The position numbers were made by a program, and so were the translations under genes. The notes beneath the pieces are model-generated. The model was not told the DNA's origin, searched no databases, and saw only the letters and a program-made list of their open reading frames with translations. DNA of 64,000 nt from Elusimicrobiota bacterium (GTDB lineage: Bacteria; Elusimicrobiota; Elusimicrobia; Elusimicrobiales; UBA9959): positions 1 to 64,000 of the forward strand of contig WOVA01000009.1 in the NCBI GenBank assembly GCA_009773155.1. The letters are read 5' to 3'. Shown piece by piece: positions 1 to 29,220 of this stretch; the stretch's first letter is position 1; each line of letters opens with the position of its first letter.

Positions 1-30
1 GGGCCCAGCGCTATGCGCGCCCGGCCCGAC

Positions 31-112
31 GAGGTGTATACCTCCCGAAGGGCGCCCGCTATGCGGGCGGAAAGTTGCAACTGCAACTTTCAGGTTAAGT
101 TGTCCGGGACAA
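31..112. repeat. Cluster of four short perfect or near-perfect palindromes
   Basis: The gene-free first 193 bases contain several hairpin-forming palindromes in a row: GAGGT-GTAT-ACCTC, CGCCCGC-TAT-GCGGGCG at 53-69, GAAAGTTGCA-AC-TGCAACTTTC at 70-91 and TTGTCC-G-GGACAA at 100-112. A weaker GCGC-TAT-GCGC lies at 8-18. No T-run follows, so a plain intrinsic terminator is not obvious, although the cluster lies just beyond the 3' end of a nine-gene minus-strand run. It could be a structured 3' end, a REP-like cluster or an unrecognised RNA. I see no coding signal in 1-193. Confidence 0.5.
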
Positions 113-193: not shown

Positions 194-1114
194 TTACCTG
201 GGGAAGTGGGAGTAGCGGAACTGGAACATGCCGAGCAGGTCCCAGCCGCCGTCGAACATCAGGTAGGAGAGCTGGAAGTTGAGCTTAAGCATGGTGCCGA
301 GCTGCAGATTGATCAGCTTGGGGCTCATCGGGGCGCCCTGCGGTATTATTATTTCGGCCGCTATGGGGTTGTTGGGCCTGGGCAGCCAGATGAAGCCGGC
401 GAACATCGCTCCCGTAGGCACCTCGCGCCCCGTGTAGCCGTTGAGCGACAGCGCCCGCTCCGACAGGAACTCGGAAAGCATATAGATGCTCTTGGAGAGG
501 TCGCCGTCGGCGTAGCCCGCGTTGACCATGAACTTCGGGTGCAGGTGCTTGGTCAGGGCCAGGTAGGCCGTCGCGTAGGTGTTGGTGTTCTTGTCGTCGA
601 CGGAGATAGTGGGAACGCTGGCGTTGAGAGGGTTCTGTCTGGAGTCGCGGAAAGCGAAAGTGCCCTGCGCGCCGGCGGCCATCGCCGGCCTCCAGGCGCC
701 CTCGGTCTGTATCAGCATCTTGCCGTCGGCGCTTATGAACCAGACGCCGAGCCGGTCGATGTAGCTCTTCTTCTCCAGCGTCCAGTCGAAAGAATTCTTG
801 CCGTAGAGCCGGCCGATATAATAGGCGGCGTTGAAGTCCAGGCCGAGGCCTATTTCGTTCCTGCCCCGTCCGCGGTAGGCGGTGGGCGTCAGGACGATTC
901 CGCTGATCGGCACGGCGGCCGGCGGGTAGACGCCCGGTGTACGCTTGGACTTCGAGGGAGCCATGCCCGGAAGGCCGGCCGAATCCGTTGAGACTGCGAC
1001 CTCTCCCGCCGCGGGCGCAGACGGCACTGGGACACCAAGCGGCATGGTGTCCCCCGCTGATGCGGCCGCGGTGGCGCAGAGGGCGAAAAGAAAGGCTATT
1101 ATCCCGGTATTCAT
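194..1114 (-). CDS. Exported outer-membrane beta-barrel-like protein, last gene of the rpsO-ftsK-pgpA run
   Basis: I do not recognise the family. The 306-residue product starts with a signal peptide (MNTGIIAFLFALCATAAASA). A low-complexity linker follows, then a C-terminal region of alternating hydrophobic and polar segments rich in Tyr, Phe and Gly, ending FRYSHFPR with aromatic residues near the terminus as in many outer membrane barrels. The start was chosen because its ATG overlaps the pgpA stop in an ATGA junction and it yields a clean signal peptide. The longer in-frame extension only shadows pgpA. A palindromic element is read in frame right after the signal peptide as GDTMPLGVP. The function is unknown; sharing a run with pgsA, pgpA and lolA suggests an envelope role, which is inference. 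Confidence 0.75.
   Translation of the reverse strand: MNTGIIAFLFALCATAAASAGDTMPLGVPVPSAPAAGEVAVSTDSAGLPGMAPSKSKRTPGVYPPAAVPISGIVLTPTAYRGRGRNEIGLGLDFNAAYYIGRLYGKNSFDWTLEKKSYIDRLGVWFISADGKMLIQTEGAWRPAMAAGAQGTFAFRDSRQNPLNASVPTISVDDKNTNTYATAYLALTKHLHPKFMVNAGYADGDLSKSIYMLSEFLSERALSLNGYTGREVPTGAMFAGFIWLPRPNNPIAAEIIIPQGAPMSPKLINLQLGTMLKLNFQLSYLMFDGGWDLLGMFQFRYSHFPR
1029..1053 (-). repeat. Protein-coding palindromic element, copy 1 (in the barrel protein gene)
   Basis: The 25-bp palindrome has arms GGGACACCAAGC and GCATGGTGTCCC around one central G, with one mismatch. On the coding strand it is preceded by GCATCAGCG and read in frame as GDTMPLGVP, between the signal peptide and the mature domain. 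The ATCAGCG-type flank recurs at the 1602 and 4657 copies, so the repeated unit is nearer 40 bp than 25. Confidence 0.85.
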
Positions 1115-1653
1115 AATACGAAGACGGTCACGAATCGCGCTATGACATTGGCGGCGATCCCGGCCATGAAGTCGTCCATAATTATACCAAAACCGCCCTG
1201 GAGGTTCTTTTCCGCGAAGCTGATGGGCCAGGGCTTGACCGTGTCGAGGAAGCGGAAGGCGACGAAGGCGGTTATGATCGGCACCGGTTCCAGCGGCAGG
1301 AAGGCCGCGGCGGTCCAGAAGCCCAGTATCTCGTCTATGACGATGCGCGGGTCGTCGTGACCTCCGTAGGCCGCGGAGGCCCGGCCGGCTATCCAGGCCG
1401 AGAAAGGGAAGAAGGCGGCCAGCAGCGCGGCGTAGGCCCACCCCGTCGGCAGCAGCGGCAGCGCGAGCAGGGCGAGAAGCGAGCCGAGCATGCCGGCCCC
1501 GGTGCATTTTTTGAAAGGGGTCAGTGTCTGGGGGAGCAGGCCGACGAAGCAGCCGGTGGCCAGGAATTCCGTCGCCTTCCTGGCGAGAGGAGAGCGGGAC
1601 TGGGACACCATGAGGCATGGTGTCCCCCGCTGATATCCGCGCGGTTCAGCCAT
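1111..1653 (-). CDS. pgpA: Phosphatidylglycerophosphatase A
   Basis: PgpA removes the phosphate from phosphatidylglycerophosphate in the inner membrane, the step after PgsA. The family signature is plain: DDPRIVIDEILGFWTA, then RFLDTVKPWPI, then GGFGIIMDDFMAGI, with several hydrophobic segments, over 180 residues. The ATG overlaps the pgsA stop by 8 bases and the gene overlaps the next by 4, so translation is probably coupled. The first ~18 residues are unlike usual PgpA N termini because a palindromic element is read there as GTPCLMVSQ. An internal ATG inside that element (MVSQSR) is a possible alternative start and would give a more ordinary length. Confidence 0.93.
   Translation of the reverse strand: MAEPRGYQRGTPCLMVSQSRSPLARKATEFLATGCFVGLLPQTLTPFKKCTGAGMLGSLLALLALPLLPTGWAYAALLAAFFPFSAWIAGRASAAYGGHDDPRIVIDEILGFWTAAAFLPLEPVPIITAFVAFRFLDTVKPWPISFAEKNLQGGFGIIMDDFMAGIAANVIARFVTVFVL
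1602..1626 (-). repeat. Protein-coding palindromic element, copy 2 (N terminus of pgpA)
   Basis: The arms GGGACACCATGA and GCATGGTGTCCC flank a central G, with one mismatch. On the coding strand it follows ATATCAGCG and is read as GTPCLMVSQ, a different frame from copies 1 and 4. It supplies an internal ATG that might act as the real pgpA start. Confidence 0.87.
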
Positions 1654-2260
1654 TCTTCTTTTCGCTCCACGACTTGCGGAGCAGTTCCCTGTGGTTGGCC
1701 AGGTAGATGACCCCGCTGATGAGCGTTACCACGGAGGCGATCACGGTCAGCCACCAGGAGGCGGGTGAGGCCCAGACGTCTACGGCGAGGAAAAATTTGT
1801 GGGTGCCGGGATGGTCTATCACCCAGACCCTGTTGAGCAGCAGGGCCATTATGGTGAAGCCGGCGATGAGCTGTATCGTGGTCTTGAACTTGCCGGAGGC
1901 CTCGGCCTTCATGACCGAGCCATGCAGCGCCGCGAGGACCCGCAGCGTGGAGATGGTGAGCTCGCGCAGCAGTATCAGGAAGATCGCCCAGAGCGGGACG
2001 TCGAGCAGCTTGACCGAGGCGAAGGCGATGAAGGCCGACATGACCAGGATCTTGTCGGCGAAGGGGTCCGCGATGGCGCCGAAAGAGGTGGTGGTCTGGG
2101 TGCGCCTGGCGATCATGCCGTCTATAGCGTCGGAAACGCTGGCGATTATCATGACGATCAGACCTATCAGTACGGTCACGAAGGTCTTCTGTATCACCAG
2201 GAAGAAGACGGCCAGGCTCAGGACCAGCCTCGTTAAGGTTATACGGTTTGCGAGGGTCAT
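1646..2260 (-). CDS. pgsA: CDP-diacylglycerol-glycerol-3-phosphate 3-phosphatidyltransferase
   Basis: PgsA makes phosphatidylglycerophosphate from CDP-diacylglycerol and glycerol-3-phosphate, the committed step to phosphatidylglycerol and cardiolipin. The CDP-alcohol phosphatidyltransferase signature is complete at about residues 43-70: SDAIDGMIARR, then GAIADPFADK, which matches D-x2-DG-x2-AR-x8-G-x3-D-x3-D. The 204-residue length and the multiple membrane segments fit the family. It overlaps lolA by 4 bases upstream and pgpA by 8 bases downstream, so consecutive steps of one pathway are encoded together. Confidence 0.95.
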   Translation of the reverse strand: MTLANRITLTRLVLSLAVFFLVIQKTFVTVLIGLIVMIIASVSDAIDGMIARRTQTTTSFGAIADPFADKILVMSAFIAFASVKLLDVPLWAIFLILLRELTISTLRVLAALHGSVMKAEASGKFKTTIQLIAGFTIMALLLNRVWVIDHPGTHKFFLAVDVWASPASWWLTVIASVVTLISGVIYLANHRELLRKSWSEKKNG

Positions 2261-3024
2261 TTCTTGAAGTTTATTATCTCCGTGCCTTTGGGCGGCGTGA
2301 AGTCGAAAAGTTTCTCGTCCAGGCCGGCGTTGCGCTCGGTCTCGTCAAGGACGGTGCTGATCTTGGCGGATTCCACCACCAGGTCCGCCCTGGCCGGGAA
2401 ATAATCCGTCGCGGAGAGCATCAGCGTAAGCGTGTAGAGTCCGCTGCGGTCTACGGGGGTGAGTATCAGTTTGACCATCCCCCCGGGGCCCGCCGGCGGC
2501 ACGGCCGTCACCTTGTTGCGCGAGGCCAGCTCGGCATAGTTGCCGAAATCCATTATGCCGGAGAATCCGGAATTCTGCAGGTTCTTCCAGTCCTCCCAGC
2601 GCGTTTTCACGGCCTGGGAGTCGGCCGGCTTGTAGATCCAGATATCCTTTTTGTCCGTCACTATGATCTGGTGCGTCGGGGTCCGGTGCTCTATGCGCAG
2701 CCTGTCGGGCTTGAGATAGGAGAGAGTTCCTTCCACCTTCTGCTCCAGGCCCGCCTCCGAGAACAGTACGGTCTGTGTGAACCCGGCCTTCAGCGAGGTC
2801 AGGGCCGAGTCCCACTCCATCAGTTTCGCCAGGACCTGATCGGTGTAAGAAGGCGTCGCGGTAGACTTCTCCACTTCGGCCTTGACGGCCGGCCGCAGAG
2901 CTTCCGGCACCGACTGCGGCGAAAGCCGCCCTGATCCGGCCGGGGCCGCTTTTTTAACCGCCGCCTCCAGCGCCGACGGACAGGACAGGCAGGCCGCTAT
3001 CGCCGCTATTAAAAATGCTCTCAT
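2257..3024 (-). CDS. lolA: Outer-membrane lipoprotein carrier LolA
   Basis: LolA is the periplasmic chaperone that ferries lipoproteins from LolCDE to the outer membrane. The 255-residue product has a signal peptide (MRAFLIAAIAACLSC...), a charged linker, then the LolA fold from about residue 58: LKAGFTQTVLF, GTLSYLKPDRLRIEH, TDKKDIWIYKP and a C-terminal FDFTPPKGTEIINF. That last motif is typical of the family. It overlaps ftsK by 4 bases. The N-terminal extension before the LolA domain is longer than in E. coli. It indicates a diderm envelope. Confidence 0.88.
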   Translation of the reverse strand: MRAFLIAAIAACLSCPSALEAAVKKAAPAGSGRLSPQSVPEALRPAVKAEVEKSTATPSYTDQVLAKLMEWDSALTSLKAGFTQTVLFSEAGLEQKVEGTLSYLKPDRLRIEHRTPTHQIIVTDKKDIWIYKPADSQAVKTRWEDWKNLQNSGFSGIMDFGNYAELASRNKVTAVPPAGPGGMVKLILTPVDRSGLYTLTLMLSATDYFPARADLVVESAKISTVLDETERNAGLDEKLFDFTPPKGTEIINFKK

Positions 3025-5318
3025 TTTATCCCCTCCTGATCGGGGACACCATGCCGCATAGTGTCCCCATCCGGCTGCGCCGGGTCTGGCTGGTGATCTG
3101 CCAGGTGGCTCTCTATCTTGTCGAAGAAGATCTCCCAGCGGTTGGAGCCTTCCGGCTTGTGGATGAATTTGTTGACTTCCAGGATGCTGAGGATGTTGGT
3201 CGCGCGGGACGACGAGCCGAAATGGGCCTTGAGCAGGTCCTGCGAGACGCGGCGCCTCTCGTTTATGAGTTTCAGCGCGGCGACGAGTTCCTCGGAGGAA
3301 CTGCCCTTGCCGCCGCCGGCGGTCTCGTCCTCCTCTACGAACATCGGGTAGTCCGGGCGGCCCTGCGTCTTGAGATAGTCCACCACGCGGTTGATCTCGG
3401 CCTCGCCGACGAAGGCGCCCTGTATGCGCAGCGGCTTGGGCGAGTCCTTGGTGAGATAGAGCAGGTCTCCTTTGCCTATCAGCGCCTCGGCGCCGGAGGT
3501 GTCGAGTATGACGCGGGAATTGACCTTGGAGGTGACCTGCAGCGCTATGCGCGACGGCAGGTTGGCCTTGATGACGCCGGTGATGACGTCCACCGACGGC
3601 TGCTGGGTGGCCAGCACCAGATGTATCCCGACGGCGCGGGCCATCTGGGCCAGGCGCTGTGTGTTCTCCTCCACCACGTTCTTGGCCTGCACCATCAGGT
3701 CGGCCAGTTCGTCGATGACTACGACGATGTAGTATTCGGGCTGCTCGTTGTTGGCCGCCGCCCAGCGGTTGTAGCCGGCTATGTTCTTGACGCGCGCTTT
3801 CTCGAACTTCTTGTAGCGCTGCATCATGACCTTGGTGAGGCAGATCAGGGTCTTGGCCGCGTCCTTGGCGTCGGTTATGACGGAGACGGAGTCCGGGAGT
3901 ACCTTAGGGTCGTAGAGATAGGGTACGTCCTGGTAGAAGGAGAGCTCTAGCCGCTTGGGGTCTATCATCACGAACTTCACTTCGTCGGGCGTGTTGCGGA
4001 ACATCAGGGAGAGTATCAGCGACTGCAGGAAGACGCTCTTGCCGGAGCCGGTGGAGCCCGCGATCAGCAGGTGAGGCATGTCCTCGAGGTTGGCCAGCGC
4101 GATGGAGCCTTCGGCGTGCCGGCCTATGCCGAAAGCCAGCGGTTCCTTGCGCTCGTTGAAAGCGGGGCTTTCCAGCACCTCGCGCAGGCCGACCTTGGCC
4201 CGCTTCTGGTTGGGTATCTCGAAGCCGATGGCCGACTTGCCCGGGATAGGGGCGATCACGCGTATGCCGGCGGCCTTCATCGCCAGGGCCACGTCGTTGG
4301 CCAGCGAAACGATAGAGCTGATCTTGACGCCGGGCGCCGGGGTCACCTCGTAACGGGTGATGACGGGCCCCGGGAAGATGTCGGCTACGTGCACGATTAT
4401 ATCGAAACTCCTGAAAGTTTCCTCGAGCTTGGTGCGGGCGGCCTCCATCTCGTCCCTCGACGGGCCGATGACGGTCTCCCGGGCCGGCGGGTCCAGCAGG
4501 TCGGCCGCGGGCAGCTTGAAATCCTTGAAGTGGGCCGTGTAGGTCTTGGGCTTCTTGTGGGACTTTACCTTTATGGCGGGGTTCTCCCGTTCTCTTTCCT
4601 TGACCGGCAGCGGGGGCGGGGCCTTCGGCTTCTCGTCCCCGGCCGGATGCGGAGCTGGGACACCATGCGGCATGGTGTCCCCCGCCGATGCCTCGGGTAT
4701 CGGTTTGGCCTCGTATTTGGGTTCCGGGCCGTCCCTCTCCGATATCAGATTGAGCCTGGACCTGAGGTCGCGGCGGGCCTGGGACCAGCTGCGGTAGTCG
4801 TCGGCGATGGCGGACCAGGAGAATCTGAGCGCCTTGCCCCAGGAGATCTTGAACAGGAGCTGTGCGCCGACCAGGAAGAGGGCGAAGGAGAATACTCCCG
4901 CGCCGGCGGCGCCGAACATCTTCTCCAGGACGTGCTCCATGTAATAACCGATATGCCCGCCGTCGAAGCCGGCGGCGGGAAAAGCTATTTCCATCAACTG
5001 CAGGCCGGAGGAGAGTGCCCCGAGCATAAGGAGTATCCCGCCGGTCAGGGTCAGCAGGCCCTTATGCGGCTTGCCGAGCTTGAGCAGTATGGCCGCCAGG
5101 CCATAGAGGAATATAAAAGGAAAAAGGTAAGCCGACTGTCCGAGGAGCCCGTGCAGCGCGCCGGAGACGGACTCCCCCACCATTCCCTTGGAGCTGCTGC
5201 TGAAAGTCAGCCAGATCAGCCACAGGGCGAAGGCGAAGGAGAGTATCCAGTAAAGCGCCCCTATAAAGGGGGACGGGGCCCCCTTCTTGCCGGGCGCGGC
5301 GAAACTGCGTTTGAGCAT
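3021..5318 (-). CDS. ftsK: DNA translocase FtsK
   Basis: FtsK is the septal DNA pump that clears chromosome termini before division. The 765-residue protein has four N-terminal membrane helices (residues ~20-160), a variable linker, and a RecA-type motor with Walker A GSTGSGKS near residue 420 and Walker B VVVIDELADLM near 533. The C-terminal gamma winged helix (~690-745) would read KOPS-like sites. Two palindromic elements are translated within it: GDTMPHGVP at ~213-221 in the linker and GDTMRHGVP at ~751-759, after the gamma domain. Neither touches a catalytic part. The gene overlaps lolA by 4 bases. Confidence 0.97.
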   Translation of the reverse strand: MLKRSFAAPGKKGAPSPFIGALYWILSFAFALWLIWLTFSSSSKGMVGESVSGALHGLLGQSAYLFPFIFLYGLAAILLKLGKPHKGLLTLTGGILLMLGALSSGLQLMEIAFPAAGFDGGHIGYYMEHVLEKMFGAAGAGVFSFALFLVGAQLLFKISWGKALRFSWSAIADDYRSWSQARRDLRSRLNLISERDGPEPKYEAKPIPEASAGDTMPHGVPAPHPAGDEKPKAPPPLPVKERERENPAIKVKSHKKPKTYTAHFKDFKLPAADLLDPPARETVIGPSRDEMEAARTKLEETFRSFDIIVHVADIFPGPVITRYEVTPAPGVKISSIVSLANDVALAMKAAGIRVIAPIPGKSAIGFEIPNQKRAKVGLREVLESPAFNERKEPLAFGIGRHAEGSIALANLEDMPHLLIAGSTGSGKSVFLQSLILSLMFRNTPDEVKFVMIDPKRLELSFYQDVPYLYDPKVLPDSVSVITDAKDAAKTLICLTKVMMQRYKKFEKARVKNIAGYNRWAAANNEQPEYYIVVVIDELADLMVQAKNVVEENTQRLAQMARAVGIHLVLATQQPSVDVITGVIKANLPSRIALQVTSKVNSRVILDTSGAEALIGKGDLLYLTKDSPKPLRIQGAFVGEAEINRVVDYLKTQGRPDYPMFVEEDETAGGGKGSSSEELVAALKLINERRRVSQDLLKAHFGSSSRATNILSILEVNKFIHKPEGSNRWEIFFDKIESHLADHQPDPAQPDGDTMRHGVPDQEGIK
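3042..3068 (-). repeat. Protein-coding palindromic element, copy 3 (3' end of ftsK)
   Basis: The 27-bp palindrome GGGGACACCATGC-C-GCATAGTGTCCCC has one mismatch between arms. It is read as GDTMRHGVP seven codons from the ftsK stop, in the same frame as the copies at 1029 and 4657. Its outer flanks differ from theirs, so it may be older or a separate subtype. Confidence 0.85.
4657..4681 (-). repeat. Protein-coding palindromic element, copy 4 (linker of ftsK)
   Basis: This is a perfect 25-bp palindrome, GGGACACCATGC-G-GCATGGTGTCCC. On the coding strand it is preceded by GCATCGGCGG and followed by AGCTCCG, matching the flanks of the 1029 and 1602 copies. It is read as GDTMPHGVP inside the disordered linker between the membrane and motor domains of FtsK. 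Confidence 0.9.
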
Positions 5319-27228: not shown

Positions 27229-29220
27229 ATGCCCATGATACTCGACGTAGCTTTCCCGGTGCCGCTCAGGAGGACTTTCTATTACTCCGAGCCGCCCGGC
27301 GCCGCGATACAGCCCGGCACCCGCGTGCTGGCCCCTTTCGGCGCCAGCCGCCGCGTGGGCGTTGTCGTCGGACGCCTTGAGGAAAAGGACGCCGACCTCA
27401 CGGGCTTCGCCACGCTCAAGACCGTCGAGGCCGCGCTGGACCCCTTCCCGCTGCTGGGTCCTGAAACGATGGCTTTCTGCCGCTGGATGGCCGCCCGCTG
27501 GGACGCCCCGCTGGGCTCCGCCATCGGCTTGTTCACCGTGCCCGGCAAGGATTTTCCCCTGCCCCCGCCGGAGGACGGCGGCGCGGGGATACTTCCGCCT
27601 CCCCCTCCCGAAGGACTGGACGCCCTGGCCGATTCACTGCTGGACCCGGCCGCGCCGCCCGGGCCCGCTCTGATAGCGGGGCTGCATTCCAGGGAGCGCG
27701 ACGCTTTCTACGCCCATGTCCTCGCCCGGGCCTCGGCCGGCGGACAGGCGCTTCTGCTGCTGCCGGACCTGGCCCTGGCGGCCTCTCTCATCGGCCGCCT
27801 GCGCGGGCTGCTCCCCGAAGGCGCGATAACCCTCTGGCACAGCCGCCTCACTCCCAAGCAGCGCCGCGAGGCCTGGACCGGCGCCTGGTCGGGCCGGGCC
27901 CGCATCGTGGCCGGCACACGCTCCGCCCTTTTTCTCCCTTTCAGGAATCTTTCCTTCGCGCTTATGGATTCCGAGGAAGACGACCTGTACAAGCAGGAGG
28001 AGCAGGAGCCGCGCTTCCATACCCGCGACGCGCTGCTCAAGCTGGTGGAACTGCGCGGCGCGCGCGCCGCGCTGGCCGGACTGATGCCCGCAGTCGAGAG
28101 CCGCATCAAGGGGGGACACCATGCGGCATGGCGTCCCGGTACGCTACGCCTGCTGGAGCGGCCGGCGCTTCTCTCCGACCCGCCGCCCCCGCGCGTGGAA
28201 CTTGTGAACCTAAACGCCACGCCCGGCGTCATCTCCGAGCCGATGCTGGCCGGCCTGCGTGAAGCGGTCGCGGCCGGCGGCAAGGCCCTGCTGGTGGTAA
28301 ACCGCAGGGGCGTTTCTCTGCGCGAGATCTGCGCTAAATGCGGCTGGACCAAGCGCTGCCGGCGCTGCGAGATACCGATGGCCACCGTGCCCGGACCGGG
28401 CGGCGATGGCCTGCAGTTCCTCTGCAAAGGCTGCGGGATAAAGGACCCTTTCAACGGCGTCTGTCCCGCCTGCGGCGGCCGCCTGTTCCGCGACAAAGGC
28501 GTCGGTACGCAGAAGCTGGCCGGCGCCGCCCGCCGCGAGCTGCCGTCGGTGCCGGTGCATGTTTTCGACGGGGACCTGGTGCGCGCCTCCCTGAACAGGA
28601 CCATGGACGCGCTGGAGGAGTTCGCCCGGCCCGGCCCCGCGATACTGGTCAGCACCCGGCTGGCCCTGCGCGGCCACGATTTCCCCGCGCTGGCGCTGGC
28701 GGGCTTTGCCGACGCCGATTACGACCTCTCGCCCGAGGATTTCCGCTCGTCGGAAGAGGTGTTCCGCATGTTCGTAGCCGCGGCCGACTGCCTGGACCCG
28801 GCGGGACCGCGCAGGCTGATCATACAGACCCGCCAGCCCGGCCATCACGCCTTCGAGCGCGCGCGCCAGTGGGACCCGGCGGCCTTCGCCGCCGACGAGG
28901 AGGTCTCGCGCCGCACTTTCGCCTACCCCCCCTTCGTCTATCTCCTGCGCATCAACTTCTCCTCGTTCGACCGCCGCGCGCTGGACGAGGCCCTGCGCGA
29001 CATGGACGCCAGGCTGGAGGAGGCCTGCGGGCCGGGCTCGCAGGCCCTCGGTCCCGTCGAGCGCCCGCCGGCCGCCGGCCGTAAGAGGCTTTCCGCCTAT
29101 TTTATAGTGAAAATGCCGCCGGACAGTCTAGCCGGCCCGGCCGGCGACAAGGTGCGCGCCATGCGCCTGCCGGCGGGAGTGGAGCTGGGGCTGGAGGCGG
29201 ACCCCTATACTTTCCGCTGA
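27229..29220 (+). CDS. priA: PriA-like primosomal protein with degenerate helicase motifs
   Basis: PriA reloads the replisome at stalled forks. The 663-residue protein keeps the 3' DNA-binding domain (FPVPLRRTFYY), the eight-cysteine zinc region (CAKC, CRRC, CKGC, CPAC; residues ~368-415) and the C-terminal domain (RRTFAYPPFVYLL). Helicase motifs are lost. Motif I, normally GVTGSGKT, reads GLHSRERD near 147; motif II, DEEH, reads DSEE near 246; motif VI, VAGRAGR, reads VAAADCL. ATP hydrolysis is therefore unlikely. Deinococcus PriA is a precedent for helicase-motif loss. A palindromic element is translated near residues 295-304. Confidence 0.88.
   Translation: MPMILDVAFPVPLRRTFYYSEPPGAAIQPGTRVLAPFGASRRVGVVVGRLEEKDADLTGFATLKTVEAALDPFPLLGPETMAFCRWMAARWDAPLGSAIGLFTVPGKDFPLPPPEDGGAGILPPPPPEGLDALADSLLDPAAPPGPALIAGLHSRERDAFYAHVLARASAGGQALLLLPDLALAASLIGRLRGLLPEGAITLWHSRLTPKQRREAWTGAWSGRARIVAGTRSALFLPFRNLSFALMDSEEDDLYKQEEQEPRFHTRDALLKLVELRGARAALAGLMPAVESRIKGGHHAAWRPGTLRLLERPALLSDPPPPRVELVNLNATPGVISEPMLAGLREAVAAGGKALLVVNRRGVSLREICAKCGWTKRCRRCEIPMATVPGPGGDGLQFLCKGCGIKDPFNGVCPACGGRLFRDKGVGTQKLAGAARRELPSVPVHVFDGDLVRASLNRTMDALEEFARPGPAILVSTRLALRGHDFPALALAGFADADYDLSPEDFRSSEEVFRMFVAAADCLDPAGPRRLIIQTRQPGHHAFERARQWDPAAFAADEEVSRRTFAYPPFVYLLRINFSSFDRRALDEALRDMDARLEEACGPGSQALGPVERPPAAGRKRLSAYFIVKMPPDSLAGPAGDKVRAMRLPAGVELGLEADPYTFR
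28113..28137 (+). repeat. Protein-coding palindromic element, copy 5 (inside priA)
   Basis: The arms GGGACACCATGC and GCATGGCGTCCC surround one G, with one mismatch. The coding-strand flank CATCAAGG resembles the ATCAGCG flank of the ftsK and pgpA copies. It is read as GGHHAAWRP, the third possible frame. In PriA alignments recalled from E. coli it falls at the variable stretch between ATPALES-like and KYRLLRL-like segments. Confidence 0.85.

Follow-up and report, generated by a model that had tools for sequence, protein, structure and literature searches.

An apparently mobile, translated palindromic repeat in an Elusimicrobiota genome, resembling Rickettsia palindromic elements and REPs

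Rickettsia palindromic elements (RPEs), among them RPE-1, RPE-4 and RPE-6, were reportedly described by Ogata et al. in 2000 and 2002. PMC2229807 gives their length as 105-146 bp. Among the repetitive extragenic palindromic sequences (REPs), the text of Di Nocera et al. 2013 (PMC3733652) records intragenic copies of the GTAG and CGTC types, for example in uvrA of Opitutus terrae, and already proposes that such copies are tolerated in linkers. The same text gives GGGGWSAS as the motif of the inverted repeats beside the terminal inverted repeat-associated tyrosine transposases (TIRYTs), which correspond mainly to subclass 2.1 of TnpA-Y1 according to PMC6006769. Here we describe a palindromic repeat of ~42 bp that occurs five times in a stretch of 64,000 nucleotides (the window; positions 1 to 64,000 of contig WOVA01000009.1, C16 in our numbering) of an Elusimicrobiota bacterium genome (GCA_009773155.1; 2.76 Mb in 93 contigs). 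A reading of the window from its letters, hereafter the sequence-only reading, had likened the repeat to Rickettsia elements and REPs and raised the idea that it is mobile; that it represents a mobile, translated palindrome of this kind is now well supported by sequence comparison, namely by 130 copies in the genome, by empty sites in syntenic genes of congeners and by avoidance of protein domains.

The palindrome GGGACACCATGC-N-GCATGGTGTCCC matched the genome 130 times at up to 2 mismatches and the reversed pattern, serving as control, not once, an excess over chance that the sequence-only reading had presumed; 68 copies have exact arms. In the window, 16 matches to the arm GGGGACACCATG, at up to 2 mismatches, compare with 5.1 +/- 2.3 in 100 dinucleotide shuffles, all of which stayed below 16. 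We examined 118 copies in detail, taken from genome stretches around the matches, and their alignment yielded an oriented unit of the form (G/T)GTAC-N-GGGACACCATGC[G/C]GCATGGTGTCCC-CCGC(T/C)GATGCGG, with the left tag GTAC-N and a right flank that we write as CCGCTGATGCGG. The tetranucleotide beside the hairpin has the consensus frequencies G.70, T.53, A.64 and C.78 and is followed by one base; beyond the unit, the flanking DNA carries little information. As the unit is both asymmetric and conserved, every copy has an orientation. The longer shared flanks from which a unit of ~40 bp had been deduced are real, but some copies, including the one at 3042-3068 of the window, consist of the palindrome alone. 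Likewise, the claim that the element is open in all six frames holds for the palindromic core and fails for the extended unit: a TGA (CGC TGA TGC) closes one of its forward frames and leaves five of six open. As RNA the unit forms a hairpin of -21.1 kcal/mol (z -3.1). The palindrome had no match in the plasmids and viral contigs searched. At several loci we also observed doublets spaced exactly 30 bp apart, whose truncated junctions, GTGT-ATCAGCGG, were identical or alike (see the table).

Comparison with three congeners (G001, G002 and G003; 84-86% DNA identity) showed that these carry only 9-13 copies each, against 130 here, and that one of them has a local array of the element. Among 341 Elusimicrobiota genomes, 334 are without the palindrome, which is present only in this genus and in three other genomes (1-3 copies each), so the family is patchy in the phylum and expanded in the present genome. 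The syntenic genes of congeners are often empty at element sites, which implies that the element moves: at 14 further sites, in two stretches of 19-20 kb, about half of the insertions occur in this genome alone and the others also in one congener, none being common to all. At coding sites the net length differences are in most cases divisible by three (24, 27, 33, 36 and 84 bp).

The stretches examined have a coding fraction of 0.94, and 83 of the 118 copies (~70%) are wholly intragenic, 8 straddle the edge of a gene and the other 27 are intergenic. With edges counted, the in-gene share (91/118) is below the expectation from the coding fraction (P=6e-9), as would be expected if part of the gene insertions were lost. 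All three frames are used, as the sequence-only reading had it, but far from evenly: 66 of the 83 intragenic copies specify GDTM[R/P]HGVP or a near variant of it, mostly within ASA-...-VP. Frames of the congener copies, taken from the longest open frame, proved unreliable in GC-rich DNA and were left aside. By our own count the GDTM frame is also used by 42 of 54 copies in hosts with a Pfam-validated frame (P=3e-11), and antisense full-length units use the three open frames in the ratio 37:2:3 (P=3e-13). Full units inside genes are oriented 42:7, compared with 6:4 for a small sample of intergenic copies (P=0.08). The host proteins include DnaX, UvrA, PolA, MetH, FtsK, PgpA, PriA, TsaD, rRNA adenine dimethylase and ScpB, along with Omp85/BamA-like, FliG-domain and MotB-like proteins, a Ser/Thr kinase, polyketide/fatty-acid synthases, radical SAM proteins and others. 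Of 53 insertions in hosts that have Pfam domains, only 7 fall inside a domain versus 28.6 expected, and 0 of 200,000 simulations gave so low a count; the domain list comprised the best stretch per family, with some further domain copies missed in observed and expected counts alike. In UvrA, PolA, MetH, FtsK, a flavoprotein subunit and a HemN-like protein the insertion lies between two domains. The earlier suggestion that copies occupy linkers and termini rather than catalytic parts is therefore borne out in general, the copy in PriA being an exception. A 782-aa protein without Pfam matches (locus L106, 2112-4460) was seen to contain five copies.

As described in PMC2229807 and PMC3733652, RPEs and the palindromic repeats of Wolbachia share with the present family that they are short, in frame in unrelated proteins, translated, tolerated and also intergenic; as in RPEs, in-frame insertions are found in unrelated conserved proteins whose orthologues are empty. 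The likeness to RPEs, which is one of description, has its bounds: the unit here is ~42 bp, the host has a 2.8-Mb Elusimicrobiota genome in contrast to the reduced genomes of obligate intracellular RPE hosts, and here the majority of copies are intragenic and the frame bias has been measured. With REPs, as characterized in PMC3733652, the family has in common a palindrome of 20-40 bp dispersed at high copy, an unpaired, conserved tetranucleotide next to it, and dimers and clusters, and with intragenic REPs the occurrence in modular proteins, including UvrA and PolA. It differs in having the tag GTAC-N, not GTAG or CGTC, and in being mostly intragenic, whereas REPs are mostly extragenic. It also differs from a REPtron, since the gene for a REP-associated tyrosine transposase (RAYT) flanked by the same palindrome, to which the sequence-only reading had pointed, was not found, the three genomic Y1 transposase genes carrying other repeats or none. 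To the terminal inverted repeats (TIRs) of TIRYTs it is allied by an arm that starts with GGGGACAC, by self-complementarity, by solitary dispersed copies and by the presence in the same genome of Y1 genes with other GGGGWSAS repeats; unlike those TIRs, it is represented beside Y1 genes only by the related GGGGACACAATACC and GGGGACAGGCTACTTTT repeats. The available parts of PMC3733652 and PMC6006769 do not describe TIRYT TIRs as translated elements inserted in genes.

One of these Y1 genes, on contig C45, lies between palindromic GGGGACACAATACCTATTTC repeats, and its orthologues in two congeners are bordered in the same way; the gene at C2:47190 is flanked by GGGGACAGGCTACTTTT repeats, and the third has no visible repeat. 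The C45-type GGGGACACAATACC repeats, which also occur solitary, resemble the window palindrome only in the GGGGACAC end, and GGGGWSAS fits this end in the arms of the window palindrome as well as the ends of the C45 and C2 repeats. Since no gene flanked by the window palindrome was found, we infer mobilisation in trans, probably by a Y1 enzyme of the TIRYT type. As a separate observation, the GGGGACACAATACCTATTTC palindromes (locus L263 on C45; also C28, C48 and C68) cluster on few contigs (C45, C28 and C48), three of which contain no copy listed for the window palindrome.

An identical core of 25-27 bp, GGGGACACCATGC-N-GCATGGTGTCCCC, occurs in a Poribacteria metagenome-assembled genome (MAG; JACRIR), where the loci examined contain 100 distinct copies at up to 5 mismatches, and an Acidobacteriota MAG has one copy of a palindrome with the same core. 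The Poribacteria copies have the flanks TTATTCG/CGAATAA, which contain stops, and 91 of the 100 are intergenic and 3 in genes, versus 83/118 in genes here (P=1e-27). This MAG also has Y1 genes that are 55% identical to the C45 type and flanked by GGGGACATAATACC. We would tentatively entertain that a selfish palindrome of the GGGGWSAS type evolved a coding-compatible form, whose flanks, stop-free in five frames, and soluble peptide in the preferred frame may have made genes, instead of the gaps between them, its main niche.

We consider it likely, with a probability of roughly three in four, that we are dealing with a mobile palindrome of ~42 bp, GTAC-N-[GGGACACCATGC-N-GCATGGTGTCCC]-CCGCTGATGCGG, which is non-autonomous, REP/TIR-like and carried as neutral translated baggage. 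The unit strand can fold into a hairpin, and the element has multiplied about tenfold here relative to the congeners. It would probably move in the form of single-stranded hairpin DNA, with a TIRYT-type Y1 (HUH) transposase working in trans on the GGGGACAC end. Most insertions would strike genes because ~94% of the stretches examined is coding, and a copy would survive where it adds a multiple of three bases, is read through, and sits in a linker, a terminus or the segment after a signal peptide. The favoured frame would supply a soluble Gly/Pro/Thr/Ser-rich peptide, ASA-GDTM[R/P]HGVP-VP, and with five of six frames open and such a peptide as product the element would be tolerated.

If, instead, the peptide were a selected, domesticated linker or tag that spread through its benefit to host proteins, the strong preference for one frame and the positions between domains and after signal peptides would be accounted for. 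However, of the 50 substitutions seen in the 66 copies read in the GDTM frame, 10 are synonymous, matching the neutral expectation of 0.22 (P=0.86), other-frame and intergenic copies exist, and the copies have diverged to a similar degree within and between genes, which together make this explanation very improbable. With no signal of selection on the peptide, the frame bias is best read as a filter at insertion and not as upkeep of a useful sequence, and the peptide has the look of a passenger that its hosts tolerate. The bias might alternatively stem from a codon-phased target preference, which the scant information in the flanks outside the unit disfavours. The hairpin itself might be kept for a DNA or RNA function of its own, as a terminator, attenuator, mRNA stabiliser or protein-binding site, its presence in genes being incidental; in keeping with this, the hairpin is strong, 27 of the 118 copies are intergenic though only ~6% of the examined DNA is non-coding, many of these lie ~10-70 bp off a gene end, and the core is predominantly intergenic in the Poribacteria MAG. 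Yet the majority of copies sit in the middle of open reading frames (ORFs) of unrelated genes, their sites are not conserved among congeners, and the intergenic excess can be ascribed to the loss of harmful gene insertions, so that such a function appears unlikely to explain the family. Arm compensation gave no signal of selection on the hairpin.

That spread occurred without any Y1 enzyme, through gene conversion, hairpin slippage or a transposase of another kind, is suggested by the want of a transposase flanked by the palindrome, by the recurrent 30-bp tandem doublets and the local array of one congener, which point to slippage or local duplication, and by CGTC REPs, also known without a dedicated transposase according to PMC3733652. 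We nevertheless find this route doubtful, as ~130 unlinked sites, an asymmetric unit and intact ends are hard to obtain by slippage alone. That the palindromes arose by chance, or encode an ancestral peptide retained by orthologues, is refuted by the control (0 versus 130), the empty orthologous sites and the 334 of 341 phylum genomes without the palindrome. Several points weigh against the non-autonomous mobile palindrome that we prefer. The window palindrome flanks none of the Y1 genes inspected, 3 in this genome, 4 in congeners and 5 in the Poribacteria and Acidobacteriota MAGs. The host linkers evolve fast, leaving most empty sites without base-exact junctions: alignment with relatives gave the empty sites that the sequence-only reading foresaw, including those of copies 1 and 2 of the window in all three congeners, but rarely its sharp insertion points. 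A target-site motif or duplication was not established from the congener comparison, and genes were called with our own codon-usage model, not taken from published annotation.

All five palindromes first noted in the window are present (see the table). The peptides originally read from them stand for PgpA (GTPCLMVSQ), PriA (GGHHAAWRP) and one FtsK copy (GDTMPHGVP), whereas the barrel copy and the other FtsK copy differ. Copy 1 is read as ASA-GDTMPLGVP-VPS directly after the signal-peptide-like start of the barrel protein, and its site shows a net difference of 27 bp from the congeners; the gene caller had placed it (1029) as intergenic through a start-site error, its true place being the barrel gene. 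The barrel ORF as listed, extending up to 1618, was rejected as spurious since its start falls within copy 2. Copy 2 constitutes a 36-bp insertion. Copies 3 and 4 have a diverged and a decayed counterpart, respectively, in congener G003, and none in G001 and G002; copy 4 lies in the linker separating the 4TM region of FtsK from its FtsK alpha domain. Copy 5 aligns inside the helicase domain of PriA, in helicase lobe 1 just past the SAT-like motif. This PriA-like protein has IAGLHSRERDAF in place of the GSGKT Walker A motif and DSEED instead of DEEHD, and may be an ATPase-dead PriA.

Features of the window, with further loci of the doublets and of a second repeat
Feature	Position	Strand	Description
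Copy 1	1024..1065	+	core 1029-1053; GCAC-T-GGGACACCAAGCGGCATGGTGTCCC-CCGCTGATGCGG; antisense to barrel gene
Copy 2	1597..1638	+	core 1602-1626; pgpA N-terminus, read as QRGTPCLMVSQ
Copy 3	3042..3068		palindrome only; ftsK C-terminus, read as GDTMRHGVP
Copy 4	4652..4693	+	core 4657-4681; ftsK, read as ASA-GDTMPHGVP
Copy 5	28101..28142	-	core 28113-28137; within priA, read as GGHHAAWRP
Host gene 1	194..1114	-	outer-membrane-barrel-like protein with signal-peptide-like start MNTGIIAFLFALCATAAASA, from translation and sequence
Host gene 2	1111..1653	-	pgpA; Pfam PgpA at residues 31-175, element outside domain
Host gene 3	3021..5318	-	ftsK; two copies, at residues ~212 and ~750, both outside Pfam domains
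Host gene 4	27229..29220	+	priA; element at residues ~294-303
Second, unrelated translated repeat	2886..2943		inside lolA-like gene (2257-3024, minus strand)
Second repeat, other loci	L077 6767-6823, L066 9264-9318, L056 1238-1294		also L111, L057, L107
30-bp doublets	C18:18060/18090, C34:36842/36872, C55:33629/33659		present genome (G000); also C29, C73, C15

The window also holds a second repeat, of ~57 bp and translated in two or more frames (GSGRxSPQSVPGALRP and RPVAELPAPTAGNAAL), many copies of which are found in this genome and the congeners, translated within several other proteins; the copy in the lolA-like gene has no counterpart at that place in the three congeners. DnaX bears both repeat families close together. 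At the contig start (window 1-98) lies a ~98-bp repeat identical to end stretches of C60, C9, C49, C73, C39 and other contigs, probably an assembly-breaking repeat. Another self-inverse repeat, ~95 bp long and with arms of ~27 bp (L072 1355-1450, L066 2116-2208), occurs in this genome and the congeners.

To our knowledge, mobile palindromes that code for protein segments have come chiefly from Rickettsia and Wolbachia, and intragenic REPs are scattered elsewhere. Our literature search found, among the papers listed, no account of such elements in Elusimicrobiota, which does not prove their absence. The present family adds roughly a hundred insertions of this sort in another phylum, in proteins both essential and modular, with frame bias and domain avoidance measured. 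How mobile DNA adds segments to proteins thereby becomes directly testable, through comparison of insertion-bearing with empty orthologues.

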